This document shows, piece after piece, positions 6,478-39,279 of a stretch of DNA of 64,000 nucleotides (within the stretch, counting starts at the first letter, position 1; each line of letters starts with the position of its first letter). The stretch covers positions 3,410,001-3,474,000 of the forward strand of contig NC_135260.1 of NCBI RefSeq assembly GCF_964204865.1. Reading direction: 5' to 3'. The stretch comes from Styela clava. Taxonomy: Eukaryota > Chordata > Ascidiacea > Stolidobranchia > Styelidae. A model generated the notes under the pieces. That model searched no databases. It saw only the letters and a program-made list of their open reading frames with translations, and had not been told where the DNA came from. The translations under genes were made by a program, and so were the position numbers.

Positions 6478-9400
6478 ATGAAACAAATCATTAACCTGAT
6501 GTTAATTGGTAAGTTTGTTAAATATTTTTAAGTCGGCTTTCTTCTACTATTAACAAATTTCACTAGAAAGTTTATAAGAATTGACTTCACCTCCAACATA
6601 AAATTTTTTTGTACTTCCTGCTTACGTCACCCACAATTTCGTAAAACCAACGGTAGAACGTGAGGCTATATAATTAGTAATCATCCAGAATGGGTTAAGG
6701 TGACGAGTGCAGATTGCGCTGTAAATTTATAGAGTCAAATCATTTCTAATCCGAACTCTAATTGAATAAGCATAATTTTTTTTTTAAACGTGGCGGTTGT
6801 GATTTTCTCAAATCCCACATTTTTGCGTTAGTGACGTGTGCTTTCCAGTGGTGGGATTCAGCCGGTTTGCACTGGTTCTATAGAACCGTCTCACGGAATT
6901 TTATGAAATCAGCGAACCGGTTAGCATTATTCAGTTTATCTGCTAAAAAATATGACTTTTTGTAATAGAACCGGCTGTAAAAATATGACTTCTGTGATGG
7001 AACCGTCTGACAAAAAATTTGAATTCCATCACTGGTGCTTTCTACAAAATATCCCCAAATTCTTATTAGCAAAAAAAAAATTCAAATGATGAAAAATAGA
7101 AAAAATTTATCTAGAACCGGAAGTTGGGGAACATTCATTTCGAAAGTCATCAAGTTTAAAAATGTTGAGAGCGACTCAAGAATTTCAAAATCTGGACCTG
7201 ATTACAATAGCATTGAAAATGGCAAAGTTAGACTCTTAGCACGGCAGACCCGGTCGCTTTAGGATAGCACGTATTAGAAATAAATAGATATCAGTGACCG
7301 CTTGTCCAGATCCAAATAAAACCCAAAATGAACAAAAAAAAACATGTTTTTGGTATTTCTGGACCCCACAAGCATTTTCTGTCCACCGACCTCAGTGTCT
7401 CTCATCACCGTATTTTACGGCCCTGCGCGCACCTTCAATGAATTGCTTAGATTGGGTTTTGTCCACCCATAAGGCAAACCAAAGACGCATAGGTTTTTAG
7501 GGAGTATCGGGTTACCGTACAAAGCTCATTGAACAAAAAACTCCATATTTTACTAGTTTTAAGTGTGGACAATAAAGCACTACATGTGCACACACTACAT
7601 GTGACTTATAAGGCCGTTTAAAACATAAATGAATTTAAAGTGCGTCATGTCGTATACAATTTGTTTCCCAGCATTGCTCGCATTTTGTGCGAGTGGAGAA
7701 TGGAGATATAAGACGTTAAGAGATATGCAAGGGAATATTACATACAACGACTTCAAAACTACTGATCACAATGACTTGAATCCAATTACAGAGTATAGCG
7801 ACAACCATGTACTTTTTATCCACATTAGAGATGTTTCTATGTATCGATGGAAGGTCGGAAACTTCGGATATAAATGGAAAGAATGTACAGCGGATTTGTA
7901 CCTGCCAGGTAAAACAGCTTATATTTGGTTTAATATCAACTAGGCGCGTCGGTGTGGCTCGTCGTGCTAAGCGTTGGGAATACACTCGCCGCCGGACCTC
8001 TGATTACTCTGCGTGGGTTCGAATCCCATGCGGGGATGTTTATGTGCGAGGGGATTGCTGGATGGTTCATGGCAAGCGGATTATGGCTTCCTCCACCATC
8101 AAGTCCATGCTTCCGAAAACAAATAACTAACTAATCCCATACCCGACATGAAATGGTAACCGACAAGAGGTCGTGGTTTGCCATACGGTCAAGCCATCTT
8201 ATCGGCTTTCCTCTCCCCCAGAATAAATATGTAAATCCTATCCTAACTACCTAATTCGCCTAGTTCACATCGTTGCAGTGATTTTATATTGGCACCAATT
8301 CCAGACCTACAGGCTTCATATGAGTTAAAGTCACTGCAACGGTGTGAAATGGTGCCACTATAAAGGGTGTCTCGAAAATGCCATATGCACATTGTCTTGA
8401 CGTAACAACTCGCTGAATATATAAATGTCATCTTCCATTCTGTCAGATATTTCGGGAAGGGCATCCATCTGTTTGACCCCGAAAGTAAGATGTTTATTCT
8501 ACCAACCGATTGGATGTAACATAGGAAGTAACTTCGATTTTGTGACGGATTTCAACGGCTTCGAATGCGACAAATACGCGTGGTTTGTTTTACCAAAATT
8601 ACCATCGACTCTCAAAATATACAAACGGTGGGAAGGCGAAAACGTTGTTCAACTTCAGTACAAGTATTTCGAATGCCTGAAAAAAATCTCATCGACAGTG
8701 ACCGGTAGGCTTCCTATTTTTCTATTTTCATTTTGTTATATCAACGTTTTCCTACCGGGGGGATTTCAATCTCGGGTAGTATTTGCTAATATTCCTCAAA
8801 ATTCTTACTATAATGCTCATATATGGTACTCCCGAAGTATGTGAACCAAGAGGGCGGACACCGGAGAATGTGTATGAAGTACTAGGTTAGGGATAGGCCA
8901 TAATTTCATTCCAATTTCCCTTATTTTAGTTCTATTATAAGTTCGGGGACTAGCCAATGTACCTCAAATTATGGCCTAGCCCTAACCTGGTACACATACT
9001 ACGTTTCGGTGTTCGCCATCTTGGTTCATATACTTCGGGACTACCCATTGCTGTACACATAAACTACTTAAATAGTACAAAAGCCCGAATGCGACTCGTG
9101 CAAGCCTAGCTAATGATTTATGAACAATTCAACAAATAGTAGTTTTTATGCATAGGGAGGGAAGAATATAAAGTTCAAAAATGGCCGAAAGGGATAATTA
9201 AACGAAAAAGGTGAGGAACAATCCGCCTCGCCATTCACTCTTGCTCCATAGTCCTCGCTGCATGAGCTGGCCCGACATTAACTATTGCGGGGGAACGAAT
9301 TGCCCAAAGTGAAGTCTGGGTAAAGATTAAGAGAATAATTGAAGATTTTGCAATAGAAAATTCGTCTTTAAACAGAAAACCTGATTTTAAAATTTTTACC

Positions 9401-10410
9401 GCCATCACTGAATAAAGGTAAGTATATTTTACGACAGACGCATCAACCATCGCAAATCCTGATTCCACGACACTTGACTACGATCACAGCGTGTCGACAA
9501 ATGAAGAAATTGTGAAGACGGACAGCGGGGCGCAGATGTTTCAAGGCAAAATGCAAATGACTGCTGGACTTTCGATCGCCGTTGCTTTGCTTGTCGTATC
9601 TTGGGTGGTGTTCGGGGTCGTATATATGCGAAACCGGTAAGTATTTTTTAAGTGAGTATCAATCTACCAATAAATTGCACCCAACACATTGCTGATGGAT
9701 GTTTCTCCGAACATCGCTTTCTCGTTTATTTCCGTAACAATGACCAGTCAGCAACGTCGTTCATATTGCAATTGGTGCAGCCGCTCAGACAGATATCCAA
9801 GCATGATTATAAGCATTGCCTCGTTTTTGTGGGTTTTGCGCGGTATTCGTTACTTTACAGTTGTGTTTCCAAAAGATATTTGTGAATTAAAAGTGAAGAG
9901 ATGCTTTGATACTTTTCTTTCCCAATGCTTTGATACTATCCTGTTATTGCCCACCGCAATTTTGTCCCATTTCGTGGTTTACTTAGATTAGGATAAGTTT
10001 TCTCATCGATGTGCAACTTTCGATACAGGTGGGGCAGATACAAATAACTGGGTGAAACCGTGCACCGCGCCATTATTTAACATAGGCTTTCTAGTAGTTG
10101 CCACTTGCAGGAACAAAAATTTTGGTTGTTGATCTTATGACATGCGTTGTTCTCTTTGCATAAGCTAGCTGTTATGGCATTGTAACGTCATAGGCAGAAT
10201 CGGGTGTAGCCTAAGCTCTTGAAAAATGATATATTTAACCTCAGGTCAAAGGCCACCTCACGCAAACCGGATGTCAAAGAAACTGAGGCGGAAGAATCAA
10301 ACACCCGGGAAATCGTGGTCAATGCAATATATGGAGAAAATTTCGAAAGAATGGGAGACGATTCGCAGCAGACTAGCTCGAGTGCTGTGTATAGCGTGGT
10401 CAAGAAATAA
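6478..10410 (+). CDS. Receptor gene A: type I membrane protein, novel family (5 exons)
   Basis: Coding exons are 6478-6508, 7672-7908, 8447-8704, 9438-9636 and 10245-10410: 891 nt, 296 residues. Every intron is GT-AG, phases 1,1,1,2, identical to genes B and C. Exons 1-2 encode a split signal peptide (starts MKQIINLMLI). Exons 2-3 form the ectodomain with six cysteines shared by all three paralogs and a potential N-glycosylation site (NIT). Exon 4 gives a linker and one transmembrane helix at about residues 218-239, followed by R-N-R. Exon 5 is a 57-residue tail with Tyr271 (AIYGENF) and Tyr291 (AVYSVV). An AATAAA overlaps the stop codon. Exon 2 faintly suggests a CUB-like beta-sandwich, but I do not recognise the family. 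Recognition or adhesion at the cell surface is inference. Confidence 0.85.
6846..7034. mobile_element. hAT MITE in intron 1 of gene A
   Basis: It begins CAGTGGTGGGATTCAGCC and ends TGAATTCCATCACTG. Both sides carry the perfect 8-bp duplication GTGCTTTC (6838-6845 and 7035-7042). A related copy is at 30617-30796. Confidence 0.9.
7943..8244 (+). mobile_element. tRNA-derived SINE in intron 2 of gene A
   Basis: The head is tRNA-like, with a perfect B box GGTTCGAATCC and an A-box-like TGGCTCGTCGTGC. The body ends in a shared tail (CTTATCGGCTTTCCTCTCCCCC then ATAAAT). The full-length relative is at 48991-49324 on the minus strand. Tail-only or head-only copies lie near 3299-3350, 10443-10521, 11636-11735, 25828-25925, 28453-28565, 35457-35612 and 38895-39018. 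Confidence 0.85.
8825..9045. mobile_element. Long-TIR MITE (GGTACTCCCGAAG family) in intron 3 of gene A
   Basis: Starts GGTACTCCCGAAGTATG and ends in the inverted form. The arms are ~90 bp and meet in a short centre. This copy has GAGGGCGG where the family has GATGGCGG. It is the most frequent element in the window. Confidence 0.85.
9690..9910 (+). repeat. Repeat shared with 13370-13625
   Basis: Shared words include CATTGCCTCGTTTT and CGCTCAGACAGATA. Here it lies in intron 4 of gene A; its partner lies upstream of gene B. So it is either a dispersed repeat or a piece moved after the gene duplication. No terminal repeats are visible. Confidence 0.5.
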
Positions 10411-10442
10411 AGAGTCATTTGCAATTGCACGGTGTACACTAA

Positions 10443-10662
10443 CGGCTTGACGTCTGATGCATCGCGATAAGCGATTGAGACACCTTCGCCATCGCACCTC
10501 TGATTACCTTGCGCGGGTTTAAATTGAGCGCTCCAGAAGTGTATGTACCAATATGGAGGTAACTAATTTTGTTTGCCGTACCTTTAATATAACTAAAATA
10601 AGCAAAATCGGAATAAAATTATGCCCTAACTCTAACCTGGTACACAAACTAAGCGAGTACCA
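10443..10662 (+). repeat. SINE head fragment followed by a deleted MITE (variant B)
   Basis: Bases 10443-10521 match the tRNA-like SINE head. Bases 10527-10662 start GCGCTCCAGAAGTGT and end in CTGGTACACA and GAGTACC, the variant-B MITE ends, with the middle missing. Confidence 0.6.
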
Positions 10663-11640
10663 AAAATGCATCATCTTGTAATTTACTATGTTCTATTTCA
10701 AGCGAAAGCCAAGCCAAACTCAACGATAGAAGTGTCATTGTAGTAGCAAGGTCGACAAAAAACCGTAGCCAAAAATATAACTTCATCATTAGCGGAGGTT
10801 CTTACCACACTACCGCCATCTAGTTATTTTTTTGTTATAGCTATTTCTGTACGTCTACAGATACTGGTACCGGTATATATAAATTCTATAGGTAAACCAT
10901 ATTTGTGAAACAATTTTCGTCATTATTTATGCCTTTTTTGATCAAATTGTCTGTAGTATGATTTATTTCCTTTTATATATCGATATGGCTATTTCCCAGA
11001 AAGTTAATATAACGGCTCAATCATATAGCAAGGCAAAGCCTTTCATCCGGTTACTAGTCAAAGTCCAGTTATTTCAGTTGTATTTGATATGAAACTGCCG
11101 GTTTTTATGTTTGGGCTCTGTTTCTCTTTTAATGTCTATTAAACGTGTTTGCTTGTTATCTGTGAAATTTTGTTGATTTTACTGAATTTTTTTTATTTTG
11201 TTTCAACTTGAATATATAATTAATTGAACGGCAATCACCGGTTTAATTAAATCAAGGTGAGTCGAATCGAAGAGTAAATTATTCCAATCGGTTCAGAGCA
11301 AAATTTTAAATCGCCGCCATCTTGTTTTTTATCTTCTCGCCAATGGTCGAGGTGAATTCCCCTTTTTTTTCATGCAAGTCATATTTTTTTAACGCAATTC
11401 TCACATATAACTATTTTCTGTAGTGAGTTATTGATAAAACGTGTTTGTTATTGTGTGTGAGTTGTCAGTAAACTATCTGAGTGATGTCTTCTATGTTTTC
11501 AGTAATTCATTTGTTGAGAGGACCAATTACAATAAAAAAGTCGCTTACAATTATATATTTCCAAGTATTCGAGATTCGATTCAAAAAAAATATTCGATTC
11601 GGTTCTGAAATCAGAAGGTATTCGAAAATGCCCAGGCCTA
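10663..11640. other. Intergenic sequence between genes A and B
   Basis: No gene is visible. From 11145 the sequence matches unit 1 at 2990. Near 11580-11630 ATATTCGATTC words resemble the end of the element at 33295-34396. Confidence 0.5.
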
Positions 11641-11739
11641 ACTCATACCCGACATGGATTGGTAACCAAACGAGAAGTCGTGGTTTCCATATCGTTACGC
11701 CGTTTTATCGGCTCTCCCCTTCACTTTGATAATATGAAA

Positions 11740-13016
11740 TTCCTTCATTGCTTACAAAAAGCCCAACAAACGAAAGACAATAAATGTCACCAAATTTTAA
11801 CAAATTCCAGTTAATTTACTTTGAAATAATCCAGTCATCGCGAATGACTCAGCTCTATGTCATCACAGCAACAGTCATCGACCACGTCTGATTAAGAGTA
11901 ATTCTATGATCAATTCTCGAAGGCTATGAGGAACGCACAAAAGATAATTTCCGATAGAACGGTTTAGGAAGTCCCACGCAATGCACCACATAATGTTTGC
12001 GAATAGAGCAGAGTATAGACTATATAGACAGATGTACATCAGGCTATTTGGATGGGGATTGTGAGACATTGCTTATGATAGGAATGCCACTAGCCTCGTA
12101 AACAAGGGCGGGGCAGTATGTTCTCAAGCTTTTTATATTAGGGGGGTAGGTATTATGTTTTTGGTGATAAAACTATTTTTAACCTATAAAAATGTGTTAC
12201 GTATTTGACTGATCGTCTTCACCGGCATATGAACCACTTTCTGATTATTTGATTACATTTTTATTTGCGTTAAGAATTGGTGTATGCTGTCAAACCTGAA
12301 AATTAGGGGGCTGTCTGAAATTTTAGAGTGTTCACCCCCTATAAAGGGATGTAAAGAAATTAATGGGGGAGGGCACGATGAGCTTTCGCAATGATGGTCC
12401 TTATAGTAGTGTCATGCTATACTGTTTTAAGTTAGGGCAGATATATATTGTGGACAAATGGTTACAGTCACATTTAATTAACTTGAAATTAGTGTGAAGT
12501 CATCGCAAATGTTACATAGTGAGGGTCTGCTCGTGGAAAACCGCTTGGTAGTACCATAAAAAGCATCGGATGCCCAGCTTATGAAACATCGCTTTAGACT
12601 GGCGTTGTCGGACATGTCCGCGATTTTAATGGTCAAATTTGCGTCAGGGAGAAATGTTAGTGCTTTAAATGTCAGAGATTTTTGAACATCGTGCCACCCT
12701 GCTACAGATCCTTGAGTTTTCAGATATTGCGCGTCCGCGAAATTGATTTCAGAGATATAGATGTCATAAAAATTTGTCAACGTGCCAAATTAAAATTTTG
12801 TCAGGGATTTTGTTTTTTCAGATATGGCAACGCTACTTTTGACCCAGAGGCATCACTTACCAGAGATGTCGAGTTTCAATATTACTAGAATGCTGTAATA
12901 ATGTGTAATAACCTCTTGTTTGCCAAGACTGTTAAGATGCGGTCCAACAGGGTAATTGCATTTAAGCCTAAATGAATCACCGAGTTAAGAGTTCATCGAG
13001 CCCGTTTAACATGAAT
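11740..13016. other. Non-coding upstream part of unit 2
   Basis: No gene is visible; short open frames are unrelated to one another. It aligns with 3400-4590 and 5770-5800 of unit 1, without the hAT insertion found there. Confidence 0.55.
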
Positions 13017-13246
13017 GGGACTCCCGAAGTATGCGAACCAAGATGGCGGACATCGGAATGTAATATGTGTACTAGGTTAGGGTTAGGCCATAATTTTAGG
13101 TATAAATACTACGGGAAGCTCTTGGCTAGTCTTCGAACTGATAATAGGACTAAAATAAGGAAAATTGGAAAAAAATTATCGCCTAACCTGTTACCCATGT
13201 TACGTTCCGTTGTCCGCCATCTTGGTTCGCATACTTCGGGAGCACC
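13017..13246. mobile_element. Long-TIR MITE, GGTACTCCCGAAG family
   Basis: Left arm has CCAAGATGGCGGACAT and the right arm its complement, ending GGGAGCACC. It interrupts the conserved upstream block of unit 2, which continues after it. Confidence 0.85.
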
Positions 13247-13369
13247 AGACGAAACCTTATTATGACGCCAATATTGTATACGGAAATCATTGTGCTGTCA
13301 CACTGTAATCAAAATAGCAAGCGCTTATACCACAGGGTACTCGTCATCAACGATAGGTAGCAGAGTATG

Positions 13370-13625
13370 AATGTTTTCCCGAGCATAGATTTTCGTAATA
13401 ATGATCAACCAGCAATAAGTCAACAATGTTGTAACAATTGCAATTTGTACAGACGCTCAGACACTTCTTTAGCTCAGACAGATAGGTATTCAAGCATGGT
13501 TGTAAACATTGCCTCGTTTTCGTGGTTTTCCGTGTTATTTGTCAATTTTCAGTGGTGTTTTCAAAAAATATTTGCAAATCTAATAACTCTATTGTCATAT
13601 ACTGTCTTCAGAGAAGCTTTGCAAC
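13370..13625 (+). repeat. Repeat shared with gene A intron 4
   Basis: Partner of 9690-9910. A 106-codon frame runs through it, but the partner copy is not open in the same way, so I do not call a gene. Confidence 0.5.
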
Positions 13626-13716
13626 ACGAGGTTGTCTTCATGAACGATAATGTAGTTTGTACAGTTGCTGGCGACGGCTTTCTATAATTCAGTATATGTA
13701 ATTAATTGGGATATGA

Positions 13717-13990
13717 CAGGGTGGGCAAATTGCCGTCCGGATCCGGCCCACCGGAGTATATCATCCGGCGCCTTTGCGTCTGCCGATATTACGACTATAT
13801 TTTTTATGAATATAAATTTCGGTTGAAGATATCTATGTAAATAACGTCATAATGACCCCGATTGTTACATGGTGCTTATTATTATTATGTAAACGTTAGC
13901 CTTGCTGTTGGAATAACTTTTGTAAATAAACTGTTTTATTCATAGTTTTTCATATTGAGTTTTTCGACTCCGGCCCAGTAACCAAGTATA
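13717..13990. repeat. hAT-like fragment
   Basis: Starts CAGGGTGGGCAAATTGCC followed by a GGATCCGGCCC subterminal word typical of hAT ends. A matching right end is not clear; CTCCGGCCCAG near 13970 may be its remnant. Confidence 0.4.
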
Positions 13991-14097
13991 TTATCCAAAA
14001 CCAGCAAATAAGTCACAAGGAAGATTTCTCTGTATAAAAATTTTTATCCGTCCTTCACTTATGAAAAGTGCACGACATTGTTAATTTTTACATCTAG

Positions 14098-14166
14098 GAC
14101 TTCGTATTACAGTACAAATCCGCGTTAGCGCTAACAGCTCCTCAGCACAGTTTCCAGATTACTGAA
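14098..14166 (+). promoter_or_regulatory. Conserved 5' block of gene B, with possible splice acceptor
   Basis: Contains ACAAATCCGCGTTAGCGC and follows TTACATCTAG, matching the block before gene A. AGTGCACGACATTGTTAAT just upstream is also shared with unit 1 (AGTGCACGGCATTGTTAAT). Confidence 0.45.
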
Positions 14167-17100
14167 ATGAAACGAATAATTTGCCCGATGTTGATATTTG
14201 TTGGTAAGTTTTGTTGAATTTTCGTTGACTTTGTTTCCTGCAATATGACCATTAACAAATTGTAAGAATTGACTTTACTTCATCGCCAAAATACGAGTAC
14301 TCCCTGTTTACGTCATTCAACATTTCCGCGAAGTCTACTCAAGAAAAGATCAACGTACGTCATATTGTATTGCCAAAACTTTGTTGCAAAGTTGAATGTC
14401 GACTTGACATTTCGCGCATTTCGTAAAGCTCCAGGACACGCTTGCCATAGCTCAGATGATTACTAGTCTATGAACCATACGAAGCCTGACATGAGAAAAC
14501 TACGGCCCGCGGGCCAAATCCGGCCTGTTGGGTAAATTAATCTGGCCCACCTGATGTTGCCACAACCAAACTACAGCCAAATTTTAATCTTTTAGCTGAA
14601 AAATTGCTCAAGGAATTCGTTGAGATTGCGATTAAATTCAGTTTTGACACGTGGCTTATTGTTTTCCGCATTTGTTTTTGTAACACTGTTAATTTTGTTC
14701 ATGAGATGTAACTTATTAGGTCACACTTACATGACCCGCCAATCTGGGTGGGAAAATTTTTGGATACTCCCGAAGTAAGTGAACCAAGATGGCGGACACC
14801 AGGAACGTATTATGTGTACTGTACCAGGTTAAGCCATAATTTTATTCCAATTTTCCTTATTATATTTCTATTACGAGTTCGGGGACTAGCCGTAGTTCGA
14901 TTTGTACCTTAATTTTTTGGCCTAACCCTGACCTGGTACAGTATCTCCGCCATCTCGGTTTGACATACGGGAGCACCAATTTTGGGGCCCTTATGCGAAA
15001 ACCTTGCTCACCCCTGATACAAAGCTGTGGTCAGTGGTAATGGACTTTCTTCCATGAATGAAGAAGGACTACAAGTTCTGATATTGTTTTTGCTTTGTTT
15101 GCAGCATTACTTGCAACTGGGGTGAAAGGAGGCCTGGTTGAGTTGCGCAATCGATCGGGAGAAGTCACATATGAAAGAGTCGACGCTACTAAATACAATA
15201 CTTGGAAATTTCCTCCTGATTATAATAATAACCACGTGCTATTTATATTTATCAAAAATGTTTCGATGCATGGATGGATATCAAAGAGAAACTCCACGGG
15301 CTGCATTGGCAGGTTGTATTTGCTAGGTACGCTGTATATTTTCTTGAACATGATTACATTCCTTCCAGTGATTCACAACCTTTTTGGTGGAGCTCAATGA
15401 AACATCCAAAGTCTCGAAAATATCCCGAACAATTATTATAATTACTTATTATTTTAATGGTCTGAATTATATAAATATGAATATATATATATATATCCAG
15501 CAAACCAAACTTACTTACTATTACTATTACTTACCAAACAAAATGATACTTAAAATATAGCAAGTGTTATAACAGTTCCAAACACTTTAGGATTATTACA
15601 TTTAAACAATATGCGTATGGTAATATAGTCAAGAGATGGGCAAACAAATCCGGCTCGTTGGGTAATTTATTCTGGCGCCCCTGATGCTGCCACAACCAAA
15701 CTAAAACCAAATTTTAATGTTTTAGCTAAAAAATAGCTCAAGGAATTTGTTGAGATTGCGATTAAATTTAGTTTTGGCACGAGGCTTATTGTTTTCCACT
15801 TTTGCTTCTGTAACATTGTAAATTTTGTTCATAAAATTTAACTTTTCACGTCACACTCACATGGCCCGCCAGTCCAGATGGGCAAAATTTTTGGCCCCCA
15901 GTCAAAAACCTTGTCCACCTCTGATATAGACTCTTGGATTCAAATGAAAATTTGCTGTACTGGTGGTTGGAACCACTGGACATCCCGAGTCCACTTCATC
16001 GCAAGTAAGCTGCATCGCATTTTGTTTTTGTCTCAAACTAACTGCAGCTGGAATTAAAACAAACTTTTCAGGAATAGCAGGGACATGTCAAAACACCGAA
16101 ATAAAATGTCTGTTCTATCAACCTGTCGGATGCATTTTGAAAAACACAGCCAGCATATTCACAGGACCGCATATAAACGGCGTTGCCTGCGACAAGTATA
16201 TATGGTTTCACCTGTCAAAAATGCCACGGTCTTTTAGTATATCTGAATGGTATTACGGTGAAAAATTCGTTCAAGTACAGTACAAGTATCTCGAATGCCG
16301 AAGAAATGAAACGGAATACTCAACAACGGTAACCGGTAAGTGAACCAGCTTTTGAGACCTGAATGGTAATATAAAAATTATTATTTATTTCAACACCGGG
16401 CATAGGTTTACTCCATCACCCAAGTCTACCAGTGGTTAAACGACAACACTATTCATTACGGGTCGTACATGAGTGTAAATCAAGAATGGGCAAGGTTTTC
16501 GGACCAGGGGGCCGGTGGTCGAGGGTCAGTGGTCGCATGAAACTCACTTATTATTATCATTTTAACTGAGGTCTCGAGTACTCCTTTACAGAAAATTTAT
16601 ATTCTTAATTACAGACTCATCTACCGATCAGACTTCTTCTGTGACGGCAAATGACGTGACAAGCGACAATTCACCACAGATGCTCAATGGCAGAACCGAA
16701 CTGATTGCTGGCCTGGCAATCGCCATCGGATTACTTGTCATGTCGTGGGTGGTGCTCGGAGTCGTGATTTTTCGAAACCGGTTAGTAAAATTACCATGCT
16801 TTTGTATCATCCTGTTATTGCCCCACCACTAATCCAAGAAAAAATAGGGATGAGGCAATAGCAGTATGGTAACCGTGCTTTTAATATAGGTTTTGTGTCT
16901 ACACTTGGAACTAGGCGCTGTACGAGCATGGGGGTTAAAGGTCGAACCCTCCCTCCTTTCGAAATGTAAAAAAAATTATTGTATCATACATAGCGATTTT
17001 TCGTAGCCTGAAACGCTCTTAAGACGCTAAAGACTCTAGCCGGATCCGCTTGATATTACGGTCTAACTTGGCCATTAGAAATTTCCTCTCTACGAAAAAT

Positions 17101-17656
17101 CTTGAATGAGATATTTAGAGCACCCTCATTTCCTATCTGTAATATGAGGCGTTTGTGAAGAAATAATGTAATTCTATCCTCAGACTATTTGACGTAATTA
17201 TTAGATCTTCGTGTCCTTTTATTTGAGCATTGATTCTGTTATTAGGTAAATTTTACTGACTAATATAGGGTAGATGGGTTATACCAGTCTTTGAGTGAAG
17301 ATTAAAAGGGTGCACCATTCAATAAAAGGTTGACAAGCACTGATCCACGGCAATTAACTGGTTAACTATTCTCTGTTTTGAAGAGTTAACAGAACACTTC
17401 ACACTCTCATGGGATAAATCTTAAAATGCGTGATGAGCACTGCAGATTCTGGTGTAGCCTAATCTCTCGATATGATATATTCAATCTCAGGTCAAAGGCC
17501 ATCTCACGCAACCCGGATGTCAAAGTAACTGAGGCGGAAGAATCAAACACCCGGGAAATCGTGGTCAATGCCATATATGGAGAAAATTTCGACAGAATGG
17601 GAGACGATTCGCAGCAGACTAGCTCGAGTGCTGTGTATAGCAGGGTTCATAAATAA
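14167..17656 (+). CDS. Receptor gene B: type I membrane protein, novel family (5 exons)
   Basis: Coding exons are 14167-14203, 15105-15326, 16072-16335, 16615-16780 and 17491-17656: 855 nt, 284 residues. All splice sites are GT-AG; the exon 4 donor is a weak GTTAGT. The signal peptide starts MKRIICPMLI. The ectodomain keeps the six cysteines (one in exon 2, five in exon 3) plus the motifs NHVLFI, NVSM, CLFYQPVGC and VQYKYLEC. N-glycosylation sequons NRS, NVS and NST are present. The transmembrane helix is at about 205-227. The tail has Tyr259 and Tyr279 (AVYSRV). Exon 2 is roughly half identical to that of gene C, while exon 5 differs from gene A at only six of 55 residues. Function is unknown; a surface recognition role is inferred from the layout. 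Confidence 0.85.
14490..15016. mobile_element. hAT MITE carrying a nested MITE, gene B intron 1
   Basis: Same family as 15630-15923 and, in reverse, 40192-40492 (shared CAACCAAACT and GCTCAAGGAATT). The right end is CTTGCTCACCCCTG; the left end is eroded. A long-TIR MITE sits inside at 14763-14977. Confidence 0.75.
14763..14977. mobile_element. Long-TIR MITE nested in a hAT MITE
   Basis: Flanks AATTTTTG and AATTTTGG are an 8-bp duplication with one mismatch. The sister hAT copy at about 15885 shows the uninterrupted site AAAATTTTTGGCCCC. Confidence 0.85.
15630..15923. mobile_element. hAT MITE in intron 2 of gene B
   Basis: Ends are CAAGAGATGGGCAAAC and CTTGTCCACCTCTG. Flanks (AATATAGT and ATATAGAC) are an imperfect duplication. 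Confidence 0.75.
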
Positions 17657-18683
17657 CTAGCTTACAACTTCCTTACCAGACATATGATCCAGCCGTTGGC
17701 TCTTTCCTTGCCATGGAAAATTATGTAATAATGAACGCCAAAACGTAGCTACTCTATGTTTATTCGAGTAACACGCATACCCATACTGCCCCCGTTTTTA
17801 TATATCTCGCCTACTAAGAATAATCCCCAACCAGTCTTGGACGATGTACAGGATTAACTGATAAAGCAAAGCGGCTTGATATGTAGATATATCACATTTT
17901 AAGTGTAAACTATGCAATACTATTTTTATCGGGTAATATTTACGTTTCAGAAAATGATATTTAAATAAAATTTTCAGTTGTATCGTACATACAGGGTCGT
18001 AGCCGGAAAGTGGATTTTCAAGAATGTTGAGTCTCTTTTTTACATTTCAAGGGGGGTGGTTTTGACCCTCAAAGGCTTGTTGCCACATTCCGACGCTACC
18101 GCTTTCAAATTTTATTAATGCCGTTATTGCTACTTTGGAGTGCTATAAATTTAGCCAAGTCGGTACTGTATTTCGATGAGTAAATGAATATCTCACAGAT
18201 CCCATTAGTTTCTCGCACGGAGTCCTGGGACTTCGTATACACAATTTTTACTTCGGGAACACAATATTTTACAGTCAAGGATCACATAGATTGAATTTTT
18301 TAAGGTAAAGATGTCTTTTTCATTAGCAGTCACGGTCAAACAGAAGTTTTTAAAAGGCTCGAAGTTTGGAATTGGGTGTTTATTTTCCCGACTTCACAGC
18401 ATAGTCGTAGCCAGAACAGATTCCTGATTCAGACATAGCTTCTTACATTAAAGTTGGGGTCAGTGGCTGCTTATGCGTAACCTTGTTCGATGCCAAATTC
18501 GTATAAATACGTCGAGTAAAAATAACGATGTCGGGATTGGCGGATCACCTACTAATCAGTTTGAGTATAATAATATTATGGTTATCGTCAGTGGTGTATC
18601 TACCTAAAATGGCGTTCATGGCAAAGTTTGAAAATGCAAATTTTAGTTATTACCAACATTTTGCGATTCAAACTTTTGCCGAA
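17657..18683. other. Intergenic sequence after gene B
   Basis: The first ~30 bases after the stop match those after gene C. Bases 18075-18240 resemble hAT subterminal sequence at 2030-2215 and 38240-38430. No gene seen. Confidence 0.5.
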
Positions 18684-18895
18684 GGCGCTCCAGAAGTGTG
18701 TGTACCACTACGAGGTAATTAATTTTGTTCGCCTACTTTACATCAAGTTGCATAAAGAGACTGAAGCCTATGGGCGGGGCTATATTCACTTGGCTAACAC
18801 AGACAGTTCCCGAACTCGTAATAGAATTAAAATAAGAAAAATCGGAATAAAATTATGCCTGAACCCTAACCTGGTACACACACGACGGGAATACC
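18684..18895. mobile_element. Long-TIR MITE, variant B
   Basis: Starts GGCGCTCCAGAAGTGTGTG and ends GACGGGAATACC. The centre (TTTGTTCGCCTACTTTACAT) is shared with 40572-40783, distinguishing this subfamily from the GATGGCGG copies. Confidence 0.75.
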
Positions 18896-19068
18896 AAAAT
18901 AAGAATTTCTGGACTCCTCGCCATGACAAAGTGGTCGTTTGGGGCTTCCTTCATCGCCAAGTTCATGAGTCTGGAACAAATTACTGGTTTACTATTCTCA
19001 AGGACGGATCATGGCCTTTAGAGGCCCTAAGCACTCATGACTTTGGTGACCTATATATAAATAATTTA

Positions 19069-19271
19069 GGCACTCCCTTAGTATGTGCAACAAGATGGCG
19101 GGCACCTGAACATAGTATGTGTACCAGGCTAGGGTTAGGCCTTAATTTAATTTCCCTTATTTTAATTCTGTTATGACTCCCGTAGTATTTGTACCTAAAA
19201 TTATGGCCTAACCTGATACACATACTACGTTTCGGTGTCCGTCATCTTGTTGCACATACTACGGGATTACC
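19069..19271. mobile_element. Long-TIR MITE
   Basis: Starts GGCACTCCCTTAGTATG and ends CTACGGGATTACC. Arms carry CAAGATGGCGGGC and its inverted form. Confidence 0.8.
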
Positions 19272-20228
19272 TAAACAATAATAATGAAATTGTTGTTGTG
19301 TGTTATCTGTTATTGATTGAGTGAGTTTCAGAATAAATTGATTACTGATTTGAAGGCCGAGTTATGATTAATTCAGATAATTATCATACCTACAAATATT
19401 TATAGAGAGGTTAAAGACGATACTTGAGAAAGAAAAAAAAGGCAAAATTTATTTCACTCAAGCAATATTAAGTTCTGAGTCGTCTGACCAATCATTTCAT
19501 TAAACACTGAGGCCCTATTGAAAACTCCGCTATGAAAATATGCCGCCTTTTTCTTGGTATCCCAAGCCCTGCCTATTTTACTTAAAATTCAGCCCTTGCT
19601 ACAACATACTTGCATTATTATACGCCTACAAATCTGAGGCATAATAAAGTAAGACCAAATAGAGTTAGCCTCGCGCTGTCACCCAAACTATTACCTTCAG
19701 TGAAATCGAATATTGATAGGATCGAAGGTACTGTGAAATGCTATTCAAACATTTCACGACTGACGCTTTTTAACAGTATTGAAAATACAGACAAATGCTA
19801 TTTAAACGCAATCATCTTAAATAAATATGAAAAACCCATTCCAAGTTTCTTTTCGCAAAACACTCTTGTCAAAGCTGTCGAGTTCCGATATTATTAGAAC
19901 GTTTCCATAATACGCATTCAGCTTGTTATTTTGCTAAGACAGCTGAGAAATACCCAATGGCGTAAACACACATAACAATATATGAATCACCAAGCCGGAT
20001 ATACTTGAAGACTAATAATTTTTCCTAGAAGACGATACAATAATGTGACGTCACTATGATACAGAGAAATCATTGTTATGTCATATTGTTATCAAAATAG
20101 CGAGCGCTTGTAACACGAGGTAGTTTCCTACATGAGCGACAAGATAGAGTAGTATGTAGTAGTAGTGTAGCAGAACTTTAGTCAAGTCAATTTGTTAAAT
20201 TCCTGTTGTTTTGGAGTGATTATTTTTG
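19272..20228. other. Non-coding upstream part of unit 3
   Basis: No gene visible. The stretch from about 19700 is the shared upstream part of the duplication unit; a 95-codon frame at 19610-19897 has no counterpart in the other units. Confidence 0.5.
20046..20053. promoter_or_regulatory. CRE-type palindrome upstream of gene C
   Basis: TGACGTCA, in the same conserved context (ACGTCACTATGATACA) as the site at 5862-5869. Confidence 0.4.
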
Positions 20229-20433
20229 GGTACTCCCCAAGTATGTGAACCAAGATGGCGAACACCGGAACGTAATATGTGTACCAGATTAGGGTTAGGC
20301 CATAATTTTTTTCCAATTTTTCTTATTTCTGTTCTATTACGAGTTCGATGATTAGCCAGAAATTATGGCCTAACCTGGTACACATGCTAAGTTCCGGTGT
20401 CCGCCGTCTTGGTTCACATACTTCCGGAGTACC
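20229..20433. mobile_element. Long-TIR MITE with perfect 8-bp target duplication
   Basis: Starts GGTACTCC and ends GGAGTACC, flanked by TATTTTTG at 20221-20228 and 20434-20441. This copy defines the family's ends. Confidence 0.9.
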
Positions 20434-20631
20434 TATTTTTGTACTAGAAATTGCTTATGTCTGCAGCGAAGCACTGATCGATCTCAAACTTTCAGTTCTG
20501 GAAAGTGTAAACTTTAAAACGGCCCGATATTTTCCAAAATTTTAATTCTATAATTGATTATCCCATATTGCTCTACTGCATTGGTATCGCTTGTCCGAAG
20601 ACCTTTTGAGTAAATTAGGTGTATTGTAAGG

Positions 20632-21038
20632 CAGGGGTGCACAACTCAAATGGGGATGCGTGCCAAATTATACGAAATAATCTTGTCACGTGCCACGCAC
20701 AATCGTTGGTATTGTAAACGAACTTCCGTAAAACACACATCAAACAAATTTAAATAATAATACATAATAACGAATATCTATTTATTGAAACGATTTAATG
20801 TCCTGAATGACTGCTGATTTGAAGACGTGTGTGACGAGTCATACGGTAGTCGCTTTGGTATGAATGAATATTCCGATTTAGATTATTACGACATAAACAG
20901 ACCTTATTGCCATCAACGATAAGTGGAAAATCACGTTTCACCTACAGCAACTACCTTCGGAAAACAGGGCCACGAGCTAGCAATTTGTGGATAAACATGA
21001 CACCATTTGGCATGCGTTCCCCGTGTTGTGCACCCCTG
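20632..21038. mobile_element. hAT MITE upstream of gene C
   Basis: Ends are CAGGGGTGCACAAC and GTTGTGCACCCCTG. Flanks TTGTAAGG and TTGTTAGG are an 8-bp duplication, one mismatch. It lies ~175 bp before the gene C start codon. Confidence 0.85.
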
Positions 21039-21154
21039 TTGTTAGGCCTTACCATGCCGGTACCGATGCGCAATCTTTGTGTCCATATATTTTAGCATTG
21101 ATCTGTTATTTGTTTGTTTTTTTCATCTATAGTTAGATTATATCTGCGGCTAAG

Positions 21155-21212
21155 CATCAGTACAAATCCGCGTTAGCGCTAATAGCTCTTTAGCAGTTAT
21201 CAGAATGCAAAA
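21155..21212 (+). promoter_or_regulatory. Conserved 5' block of gene C
   Basis: Contains ACAAATCCGCGTTAGCGC as in genes A and B. A two-codon upstream frame (ATG at 21205, stop at 21211) precedes the chosen start. Confidence 0.45.
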
Positions 21213-24200
21213 ATGAAACGAATCCTTCACCCGATATTGATGTTATTTGGTAAGTTTGGTTGAAATTTTGAAGTCGACTTTGTTTCTGAATTAACATTAA
21301 CAAACAGCTCGAAGAAAATCACTGGATTTGCCTTCACCTTTCGCATCACATTATTTAGTACTTCCTTTTTGTGTCATTCGACACTTCCGCGAAATCTGCC
21401 CCTAATAGAACGAATTTGCCTAGTTCTGGTTATGATACTAAATAGGTATTTCTTGTTTACAGCATTTATTGCCACTCAGGTGAACGGAGTCTGGGTTTAT
21501 GAAGAGTTGCGTAATCCATCGGGTGAAATTACATATGATAACGAAAGCGTTTTCTCTAAGATTTGGAAGTTTTCTGCCGAATATAAGGACAACCACACCC
21601 TCTTCATATCTGTCGAAGATGTGTCGATGTATGGACAGATACCTGGGGAAAACAGTTCAGGCTGCAGAGGATGGTTGTATTTGCCCGGTACGCTTTATAT
21701 TGTAACTATTTTTGACCGCGATTGCCTTGTCTATTCCAAGTCACTAAATGCATTTTCCCTTGGTCATAGGCGCACGCACCCAAAATATCGACGTTTCGTT
21801 GCTTTGCTATCAATCCTTTCTCCAAACGAACCAATCTAGATAAATTACATTGAATAAGATTGTTAAAAATATCGTTGAATATCAGTGGCCATTTATACCT
21901 ATACTTGTTCAGAGCGATAATTACACAGTTTCACTGGGAAAGGTAATTTGTAGGGAACCAAAGCATGTCACTGAGCAACGACACCATGGTTATAATATTT
22001 AATTTAAAATATCGAAGATTCAAGTTTCGTACTGCTGTTGTTGTCGGCCAGTGGAGATTTTGGCGAATTACCTAATCAACGTCACTTTCGAGAAGTTACG
22101 GATTATATTATTGAAGCGCTATTTTTAAAAACAGATGAAAAATGAATTTTAATAAAAACCCTTGATTTTCAGAAAAGTATGGAATATGCCAAAAGCCACT
22201 AATAAAATGTCTGTTCTATCAACCTGTTGGATGTATCTTGCCAAATACAGCCACTTTAATGAGTGCGGGTGTAGACGGTATGGTCTGCAACAAATATATG
22301 TGGTTTCGTCTGTCAAAAATGCCGGAGCAATTGAAGATATTTGGCCAGTATTTCGGTAGAAAATTCGTTCAAGTACAGTACAAGTATTTGGAATGCCTGA
22401 GGAATGAAAAGGAATACTCAACAACGGTAACCGGTAAGTAAACCAGCTTTTGAGACCTGAATGGTAATCAGCGGCGTGTCTAGAGTGTGGCAGCCATGGC
22501 TCGTGCCATGGGCGCCGTTTGGACAGGGGCGCAAAGTTGGCGAAAAGTTGTAATTGTAAAATGTTTCAATAAATTAATTTCAAATTGGAAATAATTGAAA
22601 CTGATTGATTAAAATTATTTGGTATTTTTCTTAAATAATAAAATAAAATAAAAGTTTTTTCACGTATCAATTCTAACCCCCACCTGACTACACCATCCAA
22701 AAATTACGTCATTACGACGTCACAGTGACGTAATAGAGCCCTTCAAACTATACGAACTGCCATCTAAGACGCGCAAACGAGCACCCGAAATCGAACAGTT
22801 ATTTCTCTCGTTTTCTCGTCGCAATGATTCCAATAGGAGAGAGATCGATAACGTCAGTCAGTTCTTTATCGTCGGCGTCGATGCCATTTCGGTCGATCGT
22901 GCGTATATTTGGCAAGCTCTATGACGTGATTGTGATGTCGTAGTGATTTAATTTTTGGATGCCGTAGTCAGATGGGGGTTAGGATTGACATATCAAAAAA
23001 TTGTTATGCTACACCCACTATCTCAATTCAACGACAGTCGTTAAAACTTGTCGGTCAACAATCAAAGGGGGCGCATATTACGTAGATACGCCACTGATGG
23101 TAATATGAGAAAAAATAATTCTTTTCAACATAGAGCATAGGTTACCATATCCATATAAGTCCATACATCGTTGTAAACGACATGCTATTTATTCTGGGTC
23201 GCACACGAGTTGCAAATGCTTCCGGATTCTGAAAATCAAGCACATTTCTCTTTGCTGTTTCCTGTACGACGTTGAGATTAACCTAATATATGGTGTTACC
23301 TCAAAATACACAAAGCCCAGGCCATTTGGAACATATTCTAGAGATAACATAGCTTTTGTGCAAAGCGTCCTAGATAGATAGTTTATTTTGAAAACTCCAT
23401 AATTCACAAAATTTAAAAATAGAGAATTTGGGAGTGCGCGCAAACCTTTAAAAAAGTTTAAAACATGATAAATATCATGTGCCTGCTCATCACCACACAC
23501 ACAACAAGAAAACTAATTAAAAGAGGTTTGGGCCAAAATGAAAAAAAATTAAAATACGCGAATGTATTGAACTTTTAGACTGTTGTACTTTCAAAACGCT
23601 AAAGCTAACAATTCAATCTGATACAATATATGCCTTCATTTATATGTCTCGGAAGGATGGAAATATAAAATTTAATTTTCAAACGTCATGAAACTTAGTA
23701 CACCAATATACAGATATATGTTGTTAATTAAAGTAATTTTCATTTTGCCCTATCTCTCTGTGTTATTGCGATTAACCAAAGATATTTAGCATCAAATGTA
23801 AACCATGATTTTTTTATTTTCGTAGAAGTCATAACGAAATGTATGCCAAATTTGCATTCTGAATTACAGACTCATCTACCGATCAGACTTCTTCTGTGAC
23901 GGCATATGACGCAACAAGCAACAATTTACCGCAGATTCATGTCGGAACCGAACTGATTGTCGGCCTTGCAATCGCCATCGGATTACTTGTCATATCGTGG
24001 GTGGTGCTCGGAGTCGTCATTATACGAAACCGGTGAGTGTAAATACCAGAGAGAGATTTATTGTTTGGTCAATCAGAAAAACAAGCATTGCAACAGCAAT
24101 AAAAATATACAACAATAAAATTATTCGGTATAGACCGGGAGGAGCGATACGACCATACGGTCATCAGAGTCAGCTCCCCCCATATTCACTATTTTATAGT

Positions 24201-25815
24201 ATGTACGTATAATATTTTTTGCTTGCAGAGAGATGTCAAAGTAATATATAAGAAGACAAGTGAATGTTAAATAAAAATGTAAATATTTATAATAGTATGA
24301 GTTGATGTAACAGCAAAATATAATGCAGTATCGTAATTTCATTATCACAAAATATGAATATAAAAAGCACCATTGGCACCATCGGAGTTGTCAAGTCAAA
24401 GGGTCTCGAATGTAGAGCAATTCAACCTAAACACAACTGGCATTTAACATTGCCAGTTGTGTTTGAGGATTTGTTTCTTGATTGAGTAAATAGTTGATTT
24501 ATAAAGGACACTATGATTTAACAAGCCACTGTCTACAGATGCAAAAAATTTTCACATTTTAACAGGATGTACTACTGAGTTGGTAGTATTCCACAAGTAT
24601 AATGATGGAATACGAGACCAGGAGGAAAATATTCAATGATGTCTAGGACCACAGTAGGCCCGAACGAGTTGTATAATATATACAGGAAGTACTTAAGACA
24701 TGTACGCTCAAAAGAAGAGTATAAGCTGCAATATACTATACGAAATATATATATTAATATAATTTGAATGACAGAAGTACAATGTTAGGTGACACCACTC
24801 ACAGTGTTCCCTCTAAGGTGTGCGCAGAGGCTGCGCACACGCATAGATTTACTGCCCACGGACGTATTTCGATGTAATGTAACAATGTGCTCGGTTGGCA
24901 GGTTGAGATAGTTTGTTGTTGGCCCACTTATTACCCGGTTAGAACGCCAAAATTTTTTCATTGGTTTTTGCACAAATATGAGTCATTTCCAAAAATGTGC
25001 GCACACACCAAAATTTCTGCGCACACATACTACAAAAAATTGGAGGGAACATTGACCACTAATTATATACACTTGGAATAATACAAAGTCTAAATGATCT
25101 ACACTATACAAAATTGATTTCATATTCTAGAATCCGAATAGTTGTGAAAGATTTTTCATCATTGTTCAGTCCCTTATCAATTTTTATAATCCATATTGCC
25201 CACATATAGGGTCCCAGTTTCGTATGGACTCAACGTAGGAAGAGAATGTGGCATTTTTTATCAGTATAAACAATAATCATGATTTGAGACGTATAGATGC
25301 AAGTTTGAACACAGAAAATTGGATGCAGCAATTTATATCAACATATACAATAATAATGATATGAGATATAAATCCTTTAGATTGGATGAATAATATAAAT
25401 GCAAATTTGGTTTAGGGTTAGGCCATAATTTCAGATACAAATACTACGGGAGTCACTTGGCAAGTTGGACCGGAACTTGTAATAGAACTAAAATTACTAA
25501 AATTGGAATAAAATTATGGCCTATTCTAACCTGGTACACATACTACGTTCCGGTGTCCGCCATCTTGGTTCACATACTTCGGGAGTACCGATTCTGGTGT
25601 AGACCTATTTCTTGAAAAATTTTATATTTAACTTCAGGTCAAAGGCCACCTCACGCACCCCGGATGTCAAAGTAACTGATGCGGAAGAATCAAATACTCG
25701 CTCACTCACTCGTGAAATCGTGGTCAATGCAATATATGGAGAAAATTTCGACAGAATGGTAGACGATTCGCAACAGACTAGCTCGAGTGCTATGTATAGC
25801 ATGGTTCATAAATAA
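21213..25815 (+). CDS. Receptor gene C: type I membrane protein, novel family (5 exons)
   Basis: Coding exons are 21213-21249, 21463-21687, 22173-22433, 23870-24032 and 25638-25815: 864 nt, 287 residues. Introns are GT-AG in phases 1,1,1,2. The signal peptide starts MKRILHPILM. The ectodomain keeps NHTLFI, DVSM, the glycosylation sequon NSS, CLFYQPVGC and VQYKYLEC with the six shared cysteines. The transmembrane helix is at about 204-226 and closely matches gene B. The tail is 61 residues, four longer than in A and B because of a 12-base insertion in a CTCACT repeat (adds R-S-L-T or equivalent). It carries Tyr262 and Tyr282 (AMYSMV). Introns 3 and 4 have collected hAT and MITE copies. Family not recognised; surface recognition role is inference. 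Confidence 0.85.
22469..23096. mobile_element. hAT element in intron 3 of gene C
   Basis: Ends are CAGCGGCGTGTCTAGA and TAGATACGCCACTG, flanked by a perfect ATGGTAAT (22461-22468 and 23097-23104). Gene B has the unoccupied site CTGAATGGTAATATAA in the same intron. A shorter relative is at 49651-49917. Confidence 0.92.
23390..23570 (+). repeat. Dispersed repeat, GGAGAATTCTGG-related
   Basis: Relative of 2664-2880, sharing the AACCTTTAAAAAAG and GTTTGGGCCA words, in intron 3 of gene C. Confidence 0.55.
24802..25054. mobile_element. hAT MITE in intron 4 of gene C
   Basis: Starts CAGTGTTCCCTCTAAGG and ends TTGGAGGGAACATTG. Flanks ACCACTCA and ACCACTAA form an 8-bp duplication with one mismatch. 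Subterminal TGCGCACAC words are inverted at both ends. Confidence 0.88.
25411..25589. mobile_element. Long-TIR MITE, left end missing
   Basis: Only from GTTTAGGGTTAGGCC onward; the right end CTTCGGGAGTACC is intact. It stops ~50 bp before exon 5 of gene C. Confidence 0.75.
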
Positions 25816-37600: not shown

Positions 37601-38791
37601 GATATACGGTAGTCCACAAGAACTTCGTTCACTTAACTTTGTTTAATTGTTTCTCGTTTCATGTCCGCGGATTGCTGTGGTTATTTGAGAAGTAATGATT
37701 TTCTATTGTAAGTCGACACAACCGCAGGTTACATTGAACACAATTAACCCAATAAACAAGTCATTTTAAATATGCCCGCATCGGTCATGGATTGCACAAT
37801 TGTATATTGTACTTATTGAGTTTTAACATCGACCTCAGGATTTTTGGAACAGGGATATCTTGCTTAAAAATAATCTCGAGTGCGAAGGAACAAATCAAGT
37901 TTGACAAATCCCAAGATCGCGAAAATACGATTCCAATTTATTTATAGTTGGCAACTTATCACGTATTTTATGCTATTTTAGAATAGTAATCTTTTATTTA
38001 AGTAATCCTCGTAGTAATCTTGAATCAAACGTGAGTGACGATGAGCACAATTAAATTATTATGACAAGACATTTTAAATGTTGCATTAGTCATGGATTGA
38101 ATATTTTACGCAACAGAAATCTCGTTATCCACTAAAAAAGTTTTTTACTTAATCGCGATTAACGTTGCGCGGAAATTTCCGATTCCAATTTTGATCCCCC
38201 CCCCCCCCCGCTCCCTTAAGAATTCTGGCTGCGCTCTTGCTTATAAATAATGTAAATCTCGAATTCCGTCACTTTGTCATATTTCGAGACTATACTGTTG
38301 CCAAATTTTATTAAAGCTGTATTGCTTCTTTGGACAGTTACAAAATTAGCCAAGTCAGTCTTTTGAAAACTAATCAAATAGCTCGCGGAGCCCCTAGGCT
38401 TCTCTCGCGGAGCCCTGGGGCTCGGTACTGAGCACTTTGAGAACCTATGCTCTAAACACTCTGCATCAAGATCAGAAAACACAAAAGCATAGAAGAGGGA
38501 TATGCAATTAGTACTGCAGAAACCAAATTGATAACAAGCTAAATAAATACCCGAAGATGTTGATATCATGCTGTTCTTCCAATGTACTGAAGCAATAACG
38601 AGGCCGACAATACAAACACTGCAGGATGCAATCCCAAGTATAATCTCGATAAATCCAAACCAATATAACGTTCTTTTGTAACGTCTGCGCTCCACTTTTT
38701 GTCCTCGGGTGTGAGAGTTCATTGTCATCGTAACTCCTTGCATAGCCATTACTCGAGCATATGTATCCAAAATATGTGGTCTCGTGTGCAT
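34634..38791 (-). CDS. MS4A/CD20-like four-transmembrane protein 1 (2 exons)
   Basis: Coding exons on the minus strand are 38791-38551 and 35190-34634: 798 nt, 265 residues. The donor is GGTATTTATT at 38550; the acceptor has a T-rich tract ending CCAG at 35191. The join restores a Gly codon before LWCGIFLIFSGIAG, which aligns with VWCGTMTIISGVLG of the gene at 45930. Helix 1 is near residues 45-68 (WFGFIEIILG start); helices 2-4 are in exon 2. The cytoplasmic C-terminus is proline-rich with PPPPY near the end, a WW-domain ligand of the kind bound by NEDD4-type ubiquitin ligases. MS4A members are small four-pass proteins of plasma or endosomal membranes; role here is unknown. Several in-frame ATGs near the start leave the exact N-terminus open. 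The intron holds a MITE, a SINE piece and a hAT copy. Confidence 0.8.
35274..35437. mobile_element. Mariner-like MITE in the intron of the MS4A-like gene 1
   Basis: Ends CAGGGTGATCGCTAGAAAA and inverted CAGGGTGGTCGCTAGAAAA, with TA on both sides. Confidence 0.8.
35457..35612 (-). repeat. SINE tail fragment, minus strand
   Basis: Shares ATCCCGGGGGAGAGGAAAG and CGGAAGCATGGACTTG with the full SINE at 48991-49324, in the same orientation. Confidence 0.7.
35774..35980 (-). other. Small ORF with Cys/His pairs, uncertain gene
   Basis: A 68-codon frame has C-x2-C, then H-x4-H, then C-x2-C (CSVC, HYRRFH, CPNC), a spacing that could bind zinc. It lies inside the intron of the MS4A-like gene on the same strand. 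No second copy, flanking exon or recognised family supports it; chance is possible. Confidence 0.2.
36482..38449. mobile_element. hAT element in the intron of the MS4A-like gene 1
   Basis: Starts CAGGGGTTCTCAAAC and ends CTTTGAGAACCTATG, flanked by a perfect CTCTAAAC (36474-36481 and 38450-38457). Internal frames are broken. It ends 101 bp from the exon 1 splice donor. Confidence 0.9.
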
Positions 38792-38894
38792 TTTAATCTA
38801 GATTCAAGTAATATTTTTACACCTATGTGCCATAGCTTCTACACCTGATAATGAATTATCATGCAACATGAGAGCATTTCGTAACTTAGAGGTA

Positions 38895-39018
38895 TAATAT
38901 AGGATTTATATTATTTATCCCAGGAAAAGTAATGCTGATAAGAGGGTTACCAGCTCATGTCGGGTACGGGATTAGTTAAGTAGTTATTTGTTTTTCAGAT
39001 ACATGGACTTGATGGTGG
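38895..39018 (-). repeat. SINE tail fragment, minus strand
   Basis: Shares ATTTATCCC, CATGTCGGGTACGGGATTAG and ACATGGACTTG with the SINE tail. Confidence 0.55.
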
Positions 39019-39273: not shown

Positions 39274-39279
39274 TATATA

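Follow-up and report, generated by a model that had tools for sequence, protein, structure and literature searches.

Tandem genes for putative single-pass receptors in the ascidian Styela clava, with similar tails, diverged ectodomains and relatives elsewhere in the genome

A 64,000-bp stretch of the genome of Styela clava (contig NC_135260.1, hereafter C14, positions 3410001 to 3474000; "the window") carries three tandem genes, A, B, and C, whose predicted products combine a diverged ectodomain with a membrane helix and a similar cytoplasmic tail. Judging from their sequences, we consider it probable that A to C, which look intact, belong to an animal multigene family encoding small type I receptors with a single membrane pass; the family would grow by local duplication and loss and share its tails through gene conversion. 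Copying between neighbours explains the similar tails better than does a tail held fixed beside a fast ectodomain, because synonymous change is low in the tail too and the trees of the two parts disagree. Most of the family appears to be located beyond the window, given an array of 35 matching places at C14:5.53-5.79 Mb.

Gene models and the surrounding cluster

All 15 exons of A, B, and C join in frame between GT donors and AG acceptors, from an ATG at the start of exon 1 to a stop codon closing exon 5, with junctions in phases 1, 1, 1, and 2 in each gene (Table 1). The five-exon layout and intron phases that a first-pass annotation had described as common to the three are thereby confirmed. 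The predicted products comprise 296 (A), 284 (B), and 287 (C) amino acids, and the array span, 6478-25815, represents the exact outer coordinates of the models. The exon joins are predictions from the sequence and from conservation in the paralogs.

Searching the genome (376.6 Mb in 379 contigs) with exon 3 of C returned nine places, eight of them at C14 3.21-3.80 Mb. Exon 3 of A recovered the same eight loci plus the one on contig C3 (ten rows, P1 appearing in two pieces), and the tail of B nine places, all at C14 3.21-3.80 Mb. Besides A to C, this cluster contains P2 (plus strand), P3, and P4 (both minus strand), all without obvious defect, the minus-strand copies P1 and P5, and an orphan tail exon at C14:3784498. 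No further family members were found in six 10-kb pieces covering 30 kb either side of the window. The tails of P1 (C14:3212733-3212928) and P2 (3238641-3238815) extend past the usual stop and share an extra end, RRQ...TPPR.

Protein features were compared across seven cluster models (A, B, C, and P2 to P5). The ectodomains of A, B, and C each hold six cysteines, one in exon 2 and five in exon 3, a total found in six of the seven models (P5 has five). All seven have at least one N-glycosylation site, a single internal hydrophobic helix with a basic RNRSK or RNRSN on its tail side, and two tail tyrosines 20 residues apart; the helix lacks a charged residue in 6/7, P4 carrying an arginine. The hydrophobic N-terminus encoded by exons 1 and 2, scored by hydropathy alone with no signal predictor, was above the cut-off in five models, including A, B, and C, and below it in P2 and P5. 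Cysteine counts and hydropathy bear out the annotated six-cysteine ectodomain, single helix, and short tail, and a signal peptide split between exons 1 and 2 is predicted for A, B, and C.

Around the tail tyrosines, NAIYG[ED]NF and AxYxx[VI] are kept in all nine tails of the cluster. The consensus of the immunoreceptor tyrosine-based inhibitory motif (ITIM) is [ILVS]xYxx[ILV], and YxxV/I is the form of a sorting signal for AP-2.

Upstream of their start codons (6478, 14167, and 21213), A, B, and C all keep a block, TACAAATCCGCGTTARCGCTAAYAGCTC. It is preceded by a T-rich stretch ending in AG; this could be a 5' untranslated region or a trans-splice acceptor.

TABLE 1 Predicted features and their coordinates (window positions unless C14 is given)
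Feature	Position	Strand	Content or support
Gene A exon 1	6478..6508	+	Start codon and first half of signal peptide; conserved in B, C
Gene A exon 2	7672..7908	+	Signal peptide end, first ectodomain part, Cys 1; tblastn to B, C
Gene A exon 3	8447..8704	+	Second ectodomain part, Cys 2-6; tblastn
Gene A exon 4	9438..9636	+	Ser/Thr-containing stalk and transmembrane helix
Gene A exon 5	10245..10410	+	Cytoplasmic tail (NAIYGENF, AVYSVV) and stop
Gene B exon 1	14167..14203	+	
Gene B exon 2	15105..15326	+	tblastn
Gene B exon 3	16072..16335	+	tblastn
Gene B exon 4	16615..16780	+	Stalk and transmembrane helix
Gene B exon 5	17491..17656	+	Tail (NAIYGENF, AVYSRV)
Gene C exon 1	21213..21249	+	
Gene C exon 2	21463..21687	+	tblastn
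Gene C exon 3	22173..22433	+	tblastn
Gene C exon 4	23870..24032	+	Stalk and transmembrane helix
Gene C exon 5	25638..25815	+	Tail with 4-residue insertion (NAIYGENF, AMYSMV)
Putative gene-conversion tract in A (intron 4 end and tail exon)	10194..10410	+	91% identical to B tract; blastn, alignment
Putative gene-conversion tract in B	17442..17656	+	91% identical to A tract; blastn, alignment
Second array (35 places)	C14:5529297-5787409	+	Match exon 3 of the 5.57 Mb copy
24-bp element end, copies	9000, 13039, 13201, 19091, 19226, 20251, 20388, 25544, 39749, 39908		

Tail similarity and selection within the cluster

Between A and B, 6 of the 55 residues encoded by the tail exon differ, the figure given in the annotation. 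Exon 2, described there as about half identical between B and C with A more distant, measured 49-51% for B-C and 38-42% for A to B or C. Exon 3 identity among the three genes is 43-65%, and the B-C similarity in this exon is beyond chance (tblastn E 1e-35 within the window).

The annotation had read this pattern as a fast ectodomain attached to a fixed tail. For the cluster that reading fails by the annotation's own yardstick, because the ratio of nonsynonymous to synonymous divergence (dN/dS) of the ectodomain is not above that of the tail. Counting in six paralogs (B, C, and P2 to P5) gave dN/dS of 0.39 (0.28-0.52) for the ectodomain, 0.40 for exon 4, and 0.49 (0.27-0.83) for the tail, and the ectodomain-minus-tail difference spans zero (-0.45 to 0.15). 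Among A, B, and C the per-exon comparison agrees with the earlier expectation in the pair B-C only (ectodomain 0.57, tail 0.30, with a tail interval of 0.06-1.37); the values are 0.21 and 1.11 for A-B and 0.26 and 0.44 for A-C, pairwise counting being saturated for A. For 4 of the 21 exon-2 pairs no dS was obtained; these pairs were excluded from one ratio and capped in the six-paralog comparison.

Site models (M1a/M2a and M7/M8) were fitted with our own script, not PAML, against a threshold of 5.99 for twice the log-likelihood difference (2 delta lnL). For the ectodomain, six sequences were used, excluding A and P1 and with the first nine columns removed; for the tail, seven were used, excluding P1 and P2. 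Positive selection was not significant in the ectodomain (1.28 for M1a-M2a, 3.13 for M7-M8) or in the tail, where the values were larger (3.93 and 5.22). The ectodomain dN/dS (omega) under M0 was 0.50, and a few cluster sites had a posterior above 0.5 under M8, the best being 0.90.

Mean synonymous divergence (dS) in the six paralogs is 0.70 for the ectodomain versus 0.22 for the tail (ratio 1.9-5.6); for A, B, and C alone the ratio is 5.5-34. Since the A-B tail has a dS of 0.06 compared to about 2 for the A-B ectodomain, this tail is recently homogenised. Of the putative tract shared by A and B, about 50 bases are intronic. Trees of the ectodomain and of exon 4 group A with P1 (support 100) whereas the tail tree groups P1 with P2 (support 100), its neighbour about 18 kb away. 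In approximately unbiased tests of these two groups, both named after the trees were seen, the tail rejects A+P1 (p 0.0026) and the ectodomain rejects P1+P2 (7e-6). This conflict is the strongest point for conversion. Runs of shared variable sites reached p <= 0.0015 in 3 of 21 pairs, i.e., A-B in exon 5 (p 0.001), C-P2 in exon 4, and P2-P3 in exon 3.

Several observations weigh against conversion as the sole account of the similar tails. The run test presupposes that rates are even throughout the gene, and two of its three best pairs lie in exons 3 and 4, outside the tail. Next to the tail, the end of the intron is 81-85% alike versus 92-94% for the tail exon, and no more alike than the genes' 5' end (81-89%), so that some constraint on the tail besides conversion is likely. 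The low tail dS could also stem from constraint on the tail exon's DNA or RNA.

Relatives on other contigs and the second array

The relative on C3, found with exon 3 of C (E 5e-4), shares the exon 3 cysteine spacing and has an upstream exon 2; its tail ends in SREYISNVIY, which aligns with TREIVVNAIY of the cluster. Its exon 3 used as query matched C16 (E 0.57) and a copy at C14:5.57 Mb (E 0.14), and C16 in turn matched C13 (E 0.007) and C6 (E 0.03), all weakly; exon 3 of C13 gave six weak matches at C14:5.55-5.79 Mb (E 0.0095-0.5). Because these E values are weak, the relatives were tested with profiles, 200 shuffles being run per candidate. A profile of the seven cluster rows alone scored exons 2 and 3 at 29.4 + 31.9 bits in C3, 28.4 + 13.9 bits in C13, and 13.5 + 12.1 bits in C16, which none of the 200 shuffles reached. 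For the 5.57 Mb copy it gave 5.8 bits, reached by 3/200 shuffles. With C3 and C16 added to the profile, C6 scored 22.0 and the 5.57 Mb copy 17.9 bits, above all shuffles. A C10 candidate was at chance level (6.0 bits against a shuffle maximum of 5.8), and those on C8 and C4 were discarded after inspection.

Visual reading gives phases 1, 1, and 2 for the junctions that follow exons 2, 3, and 4 in C3, C13, and C16, and the junctions flanking exons 3 and 4 of C6 agree with these. Inspection also revealed ITIM-type motifs in C13 (VENVLYDTI) and C6 (SAYCDV) that fit the consensus.

Exon 3 of the 5.57 Mb copy matched 41 places at E up to 0.1. Thirty-five of them form the second array (one has a stop, and two are possibly pieces of one); three more lie at 6.16-6.19 Mb and a pair at 19.05 Mb, and the last is on C13. 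In the 5.57 Mb copy, exon 3, the helix exon, and the tail exon are joined at phases 1 and 2, and the tail holds VVYDYI, an ITIM-type motif. Upstream lies an exon 2 of the family type, with ENITFYGPTNDFNCECEWTIP...NVSLP...C...FPG; its E value is 1.5e-5 against the wider profile and 0.0042 against that of the cluster only. A tail-like frame ending in SSIYAVVNKDKK before this copy probably belongs to the preceding one.

Exon 3 of the second array shows signs of site-specific positive selection. The sample consisted of the 17 copies, out of the 35 places, most like the 5.57 Mb copy, and the models were run with a shorter version of our script with branch proportions fixed from FastTree, which is somewhat liberal. 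Overall dN/dS is 0.50 (0.31-0.78), with dN exceeding dS in 3 of 136 pairs. Neutrality was rejected (2 delta lnL 34.8 for M1a-M2a and 39.8 for M7-M8), with about 7-10% of exon 3 codons at an omega near 4. The M1a-M2a statistic was 17.9 without the exon ends, a run in which column 63 (R, Y, H, F, L, Q, S) had a posterior of 1.00, and 46.5 on a star tree. The largest value in 60 null simulations was 15.7, so none reached the observed one; six exceeded the nominal 5.99, and recombination may inflate the test.

Ectodomain identity, possible roles, and neighbouring features

Pfam had no match to the ectodomain of A, B, C, P2, or several relatives, and no immunoglobulin (Ig) or sushi match to the window proteins at E up to 10. 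The best PDB candidates for the ectodomain (E 0.45 and 0.18) were rejected, and a ten-member ectodomain profile found nothing in PDB. One Pfam hit, DAG1 on the whole C3 relative (23.6 bits against a cut-off of 23.3), was set aside as composition because the C3 ectodomain alone gave no match and the stalk, helix, and tail together scored 16.9, below the cut-off. The ectodomain remains as unrecognised as it had been in the annotation, and the description there of a tandem, type I receptor-like family with a tyrosine-bearing tail is supported.

Known systems offer partial parallels. A review on Botryllus describes fester co-receptors (FcoRs) of the fuhc locus as type I proteins encoded in clusters, some having ITIMs and some only the core Y-x-x-I/L/V, of unknown function (PMC12065747). 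FcoRs are 520-610 amino acids long with Ig and sushi domains, and fester itself has three helices. In the cluster, the last tyrosine is likewise followed by xx[VI] in 9/9 tails, the core motif listed for those FcoRs (PMC12065747), whereas the window proteins, at 284-296 amino acids, have one helix and a six-cysteine domain and no Ig or sushi domain. Conversion between adjacent receptor genes is also reported for paired receptors of mammals, namely Siglec-11/16 and CEACAM1 relatives (PMC5701461, PMC7042247). Siglec-11/16 conversion is reported to keep the extracellular part alike, whereas in the window cluster the tail is alike and the ectodomain differs. No publication visibly on this receptor family was found in a literature search in which subscription journals were poorly covered.

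If A to C are receptors, the six-cysteine, potentially N-glycosylated ectodomain would bind an extracellular or cell-surface ligand. The helix, uncharged in 6/7 models, argues against a separate signalling partner, and the protein would most likely signal or traffic through its own tail. The tyrosines in NAIYG[ED]NF and AxYxx[VI] may be docking sites for SH2 proteins when phosphorylated, signals for sorting by AP-2, or both. With neighbouring copies exchanging tail exons by gene conversion, different ectodomains would come to feed one shared output module. Inhibition is possible for the wider family, since two relatives and one array copy carry ITIM-type motifs, whereas the motifs of the cluster are not canonical ITIMs.

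Part of the evidence runs counter to an intact family with a uniform signalling tail. In P5, exon 1 is not followed by a GT donor and the fifth cysteine is lost, and P1 has a frameshifted exon 3 and no exon 1 that could be found, so part of the cluster is decaying. The ITIM consensus occurs in 0/7 tails of the cluster models. Among the relatives, the cluster-only profile does not lift C6 above chance (4.3 bits, reached by 10/200 shuffles), no exon 2 could be found in C6, and the tail exon of C16 has no tyrosine.

Two alternatives concern what the proteins are and why their tails agree. The ectodomain could be a known domain in disguise, such as CUB, to which it bears a weak visual resemblance (GxIxY...W.F in exon 2; C-x-W in both the second array and the C3 relative). 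This is unlikely, as the ectodomain fails the profile test that distinguishes it from CUB-domain receptors: a profile of ten ectodomains, none from the second array, was compared with nine CUB domains from this genome and scored 12.6, a value that 14 of 60 column shuffles reached, the CUB-CUB score was 186.5, and Pfam and PDB gave no match. Equally improbable, in our judgement, is that low tail divergence reflects strong purifying selection or slow change in the exon rather than gene conversion. Retention of both tyrosine motifs in every tail and the lesser likeness of the adjoining intron end would suit such constraint, but tail dN/dS is not lower than elsewhere, P1 is placed differently by tail and ectodomain, and the A-B similarity runs on into the intron.

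More specific than a family of small receptors with conversion-shared tails, and compatible with it, is a role in recognising self/non-self or microbes through selected ectodomains and a signalling tail. For the wider family, recognition is a fair hypothesis because the second array shows signs of site-specific selection and, in one copy, an ITIM-type tail; for A, B, and C it is a more speculative one. That the family consists of such receptors seems possible, though short of an even chance. Tandem arrays with gain and loss, tyrosine tails, the second-array statistics (17 of the 35 places, still above the null maximum without exon ends), and the few cluster sites favoured under M8 are in line with it. 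The low omega and null site models of the cluster ectodomain, with larger values in the tail, argue the other way, as do the overall dN/dS of 0.50 in the second array, the rarity of pairs with dN above dS, and the capacity of gene conversion to inflate site tests, the nominal cut-off having been passed in a tenth of the null runs. That these are instead endocytic or scavenger receptors, the last tail tyrosine being an AP-2 signal for uptake of a secreted ligand or debris, we regard as rather doubtful: AxYxx[VI] is present at that tyrosine in all seven models and in the P1 and orphan tails, and the C6 tail ends in YSVVNKSK, but the motif also suits SH2 docking, and the first tyrosine motif, equally conserved, is not of AP-2 type.

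More tentatively, the data could reflect an undescribed receptor system of this lineage, in which a new domain on at least four contigs, a diversified 35-place array with ITIM-type tails, and a smaller cluster in which gene conversion holds old, separate ectodomains to a common tyrosine tail would supply a repertoire that has no relation to Ig, lectin, or leucine-rich repeat receptors and serves to recognise self/non-self or microbes. If so, an uncatalogued ectodomain family with tyrosine tails and a large diversified array would join the invertebrate receptors, and a concrete set of sites would be testable in populations. The window cluster is a clean case of a conserved tail better explained by neighbour copying, and a warning that a diverged ectodomain with a conserved tail does not by itself show recognition.

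Adjoining the receptor array, on the minus strand at window 34634-46700, are four open frames of multi-helix proteins that form a tandem CD20-like group. Pfam identifies the frame at 45930-46700 as CD20-like (8e-8) and has no match at 0.01 for the other three, of which this frame resembles those at 34634 (blastp 4e-24), 40806 (7e-5) and, weakly, 38216 (0.002). A BEL/Pao-type retrotransposon with RVT_1, Peptidase_A17, and DUF5641 in two overlapping frames occupies 57005-63306 on the plus strand. Arrays of a 72-bp minisatellite lie at 50517-51035 and 54905-56009, in opposite orientation and about 3.9 kb apart, and contain long open frames. Finally, the window holds ten copies of a 24-bp element end against 0 expected; eight form inverted pairs with a spacing of 135-162 bp, and the element represents a repeat resembling a miniature inverted-repeat transposable element in introns and spacers.

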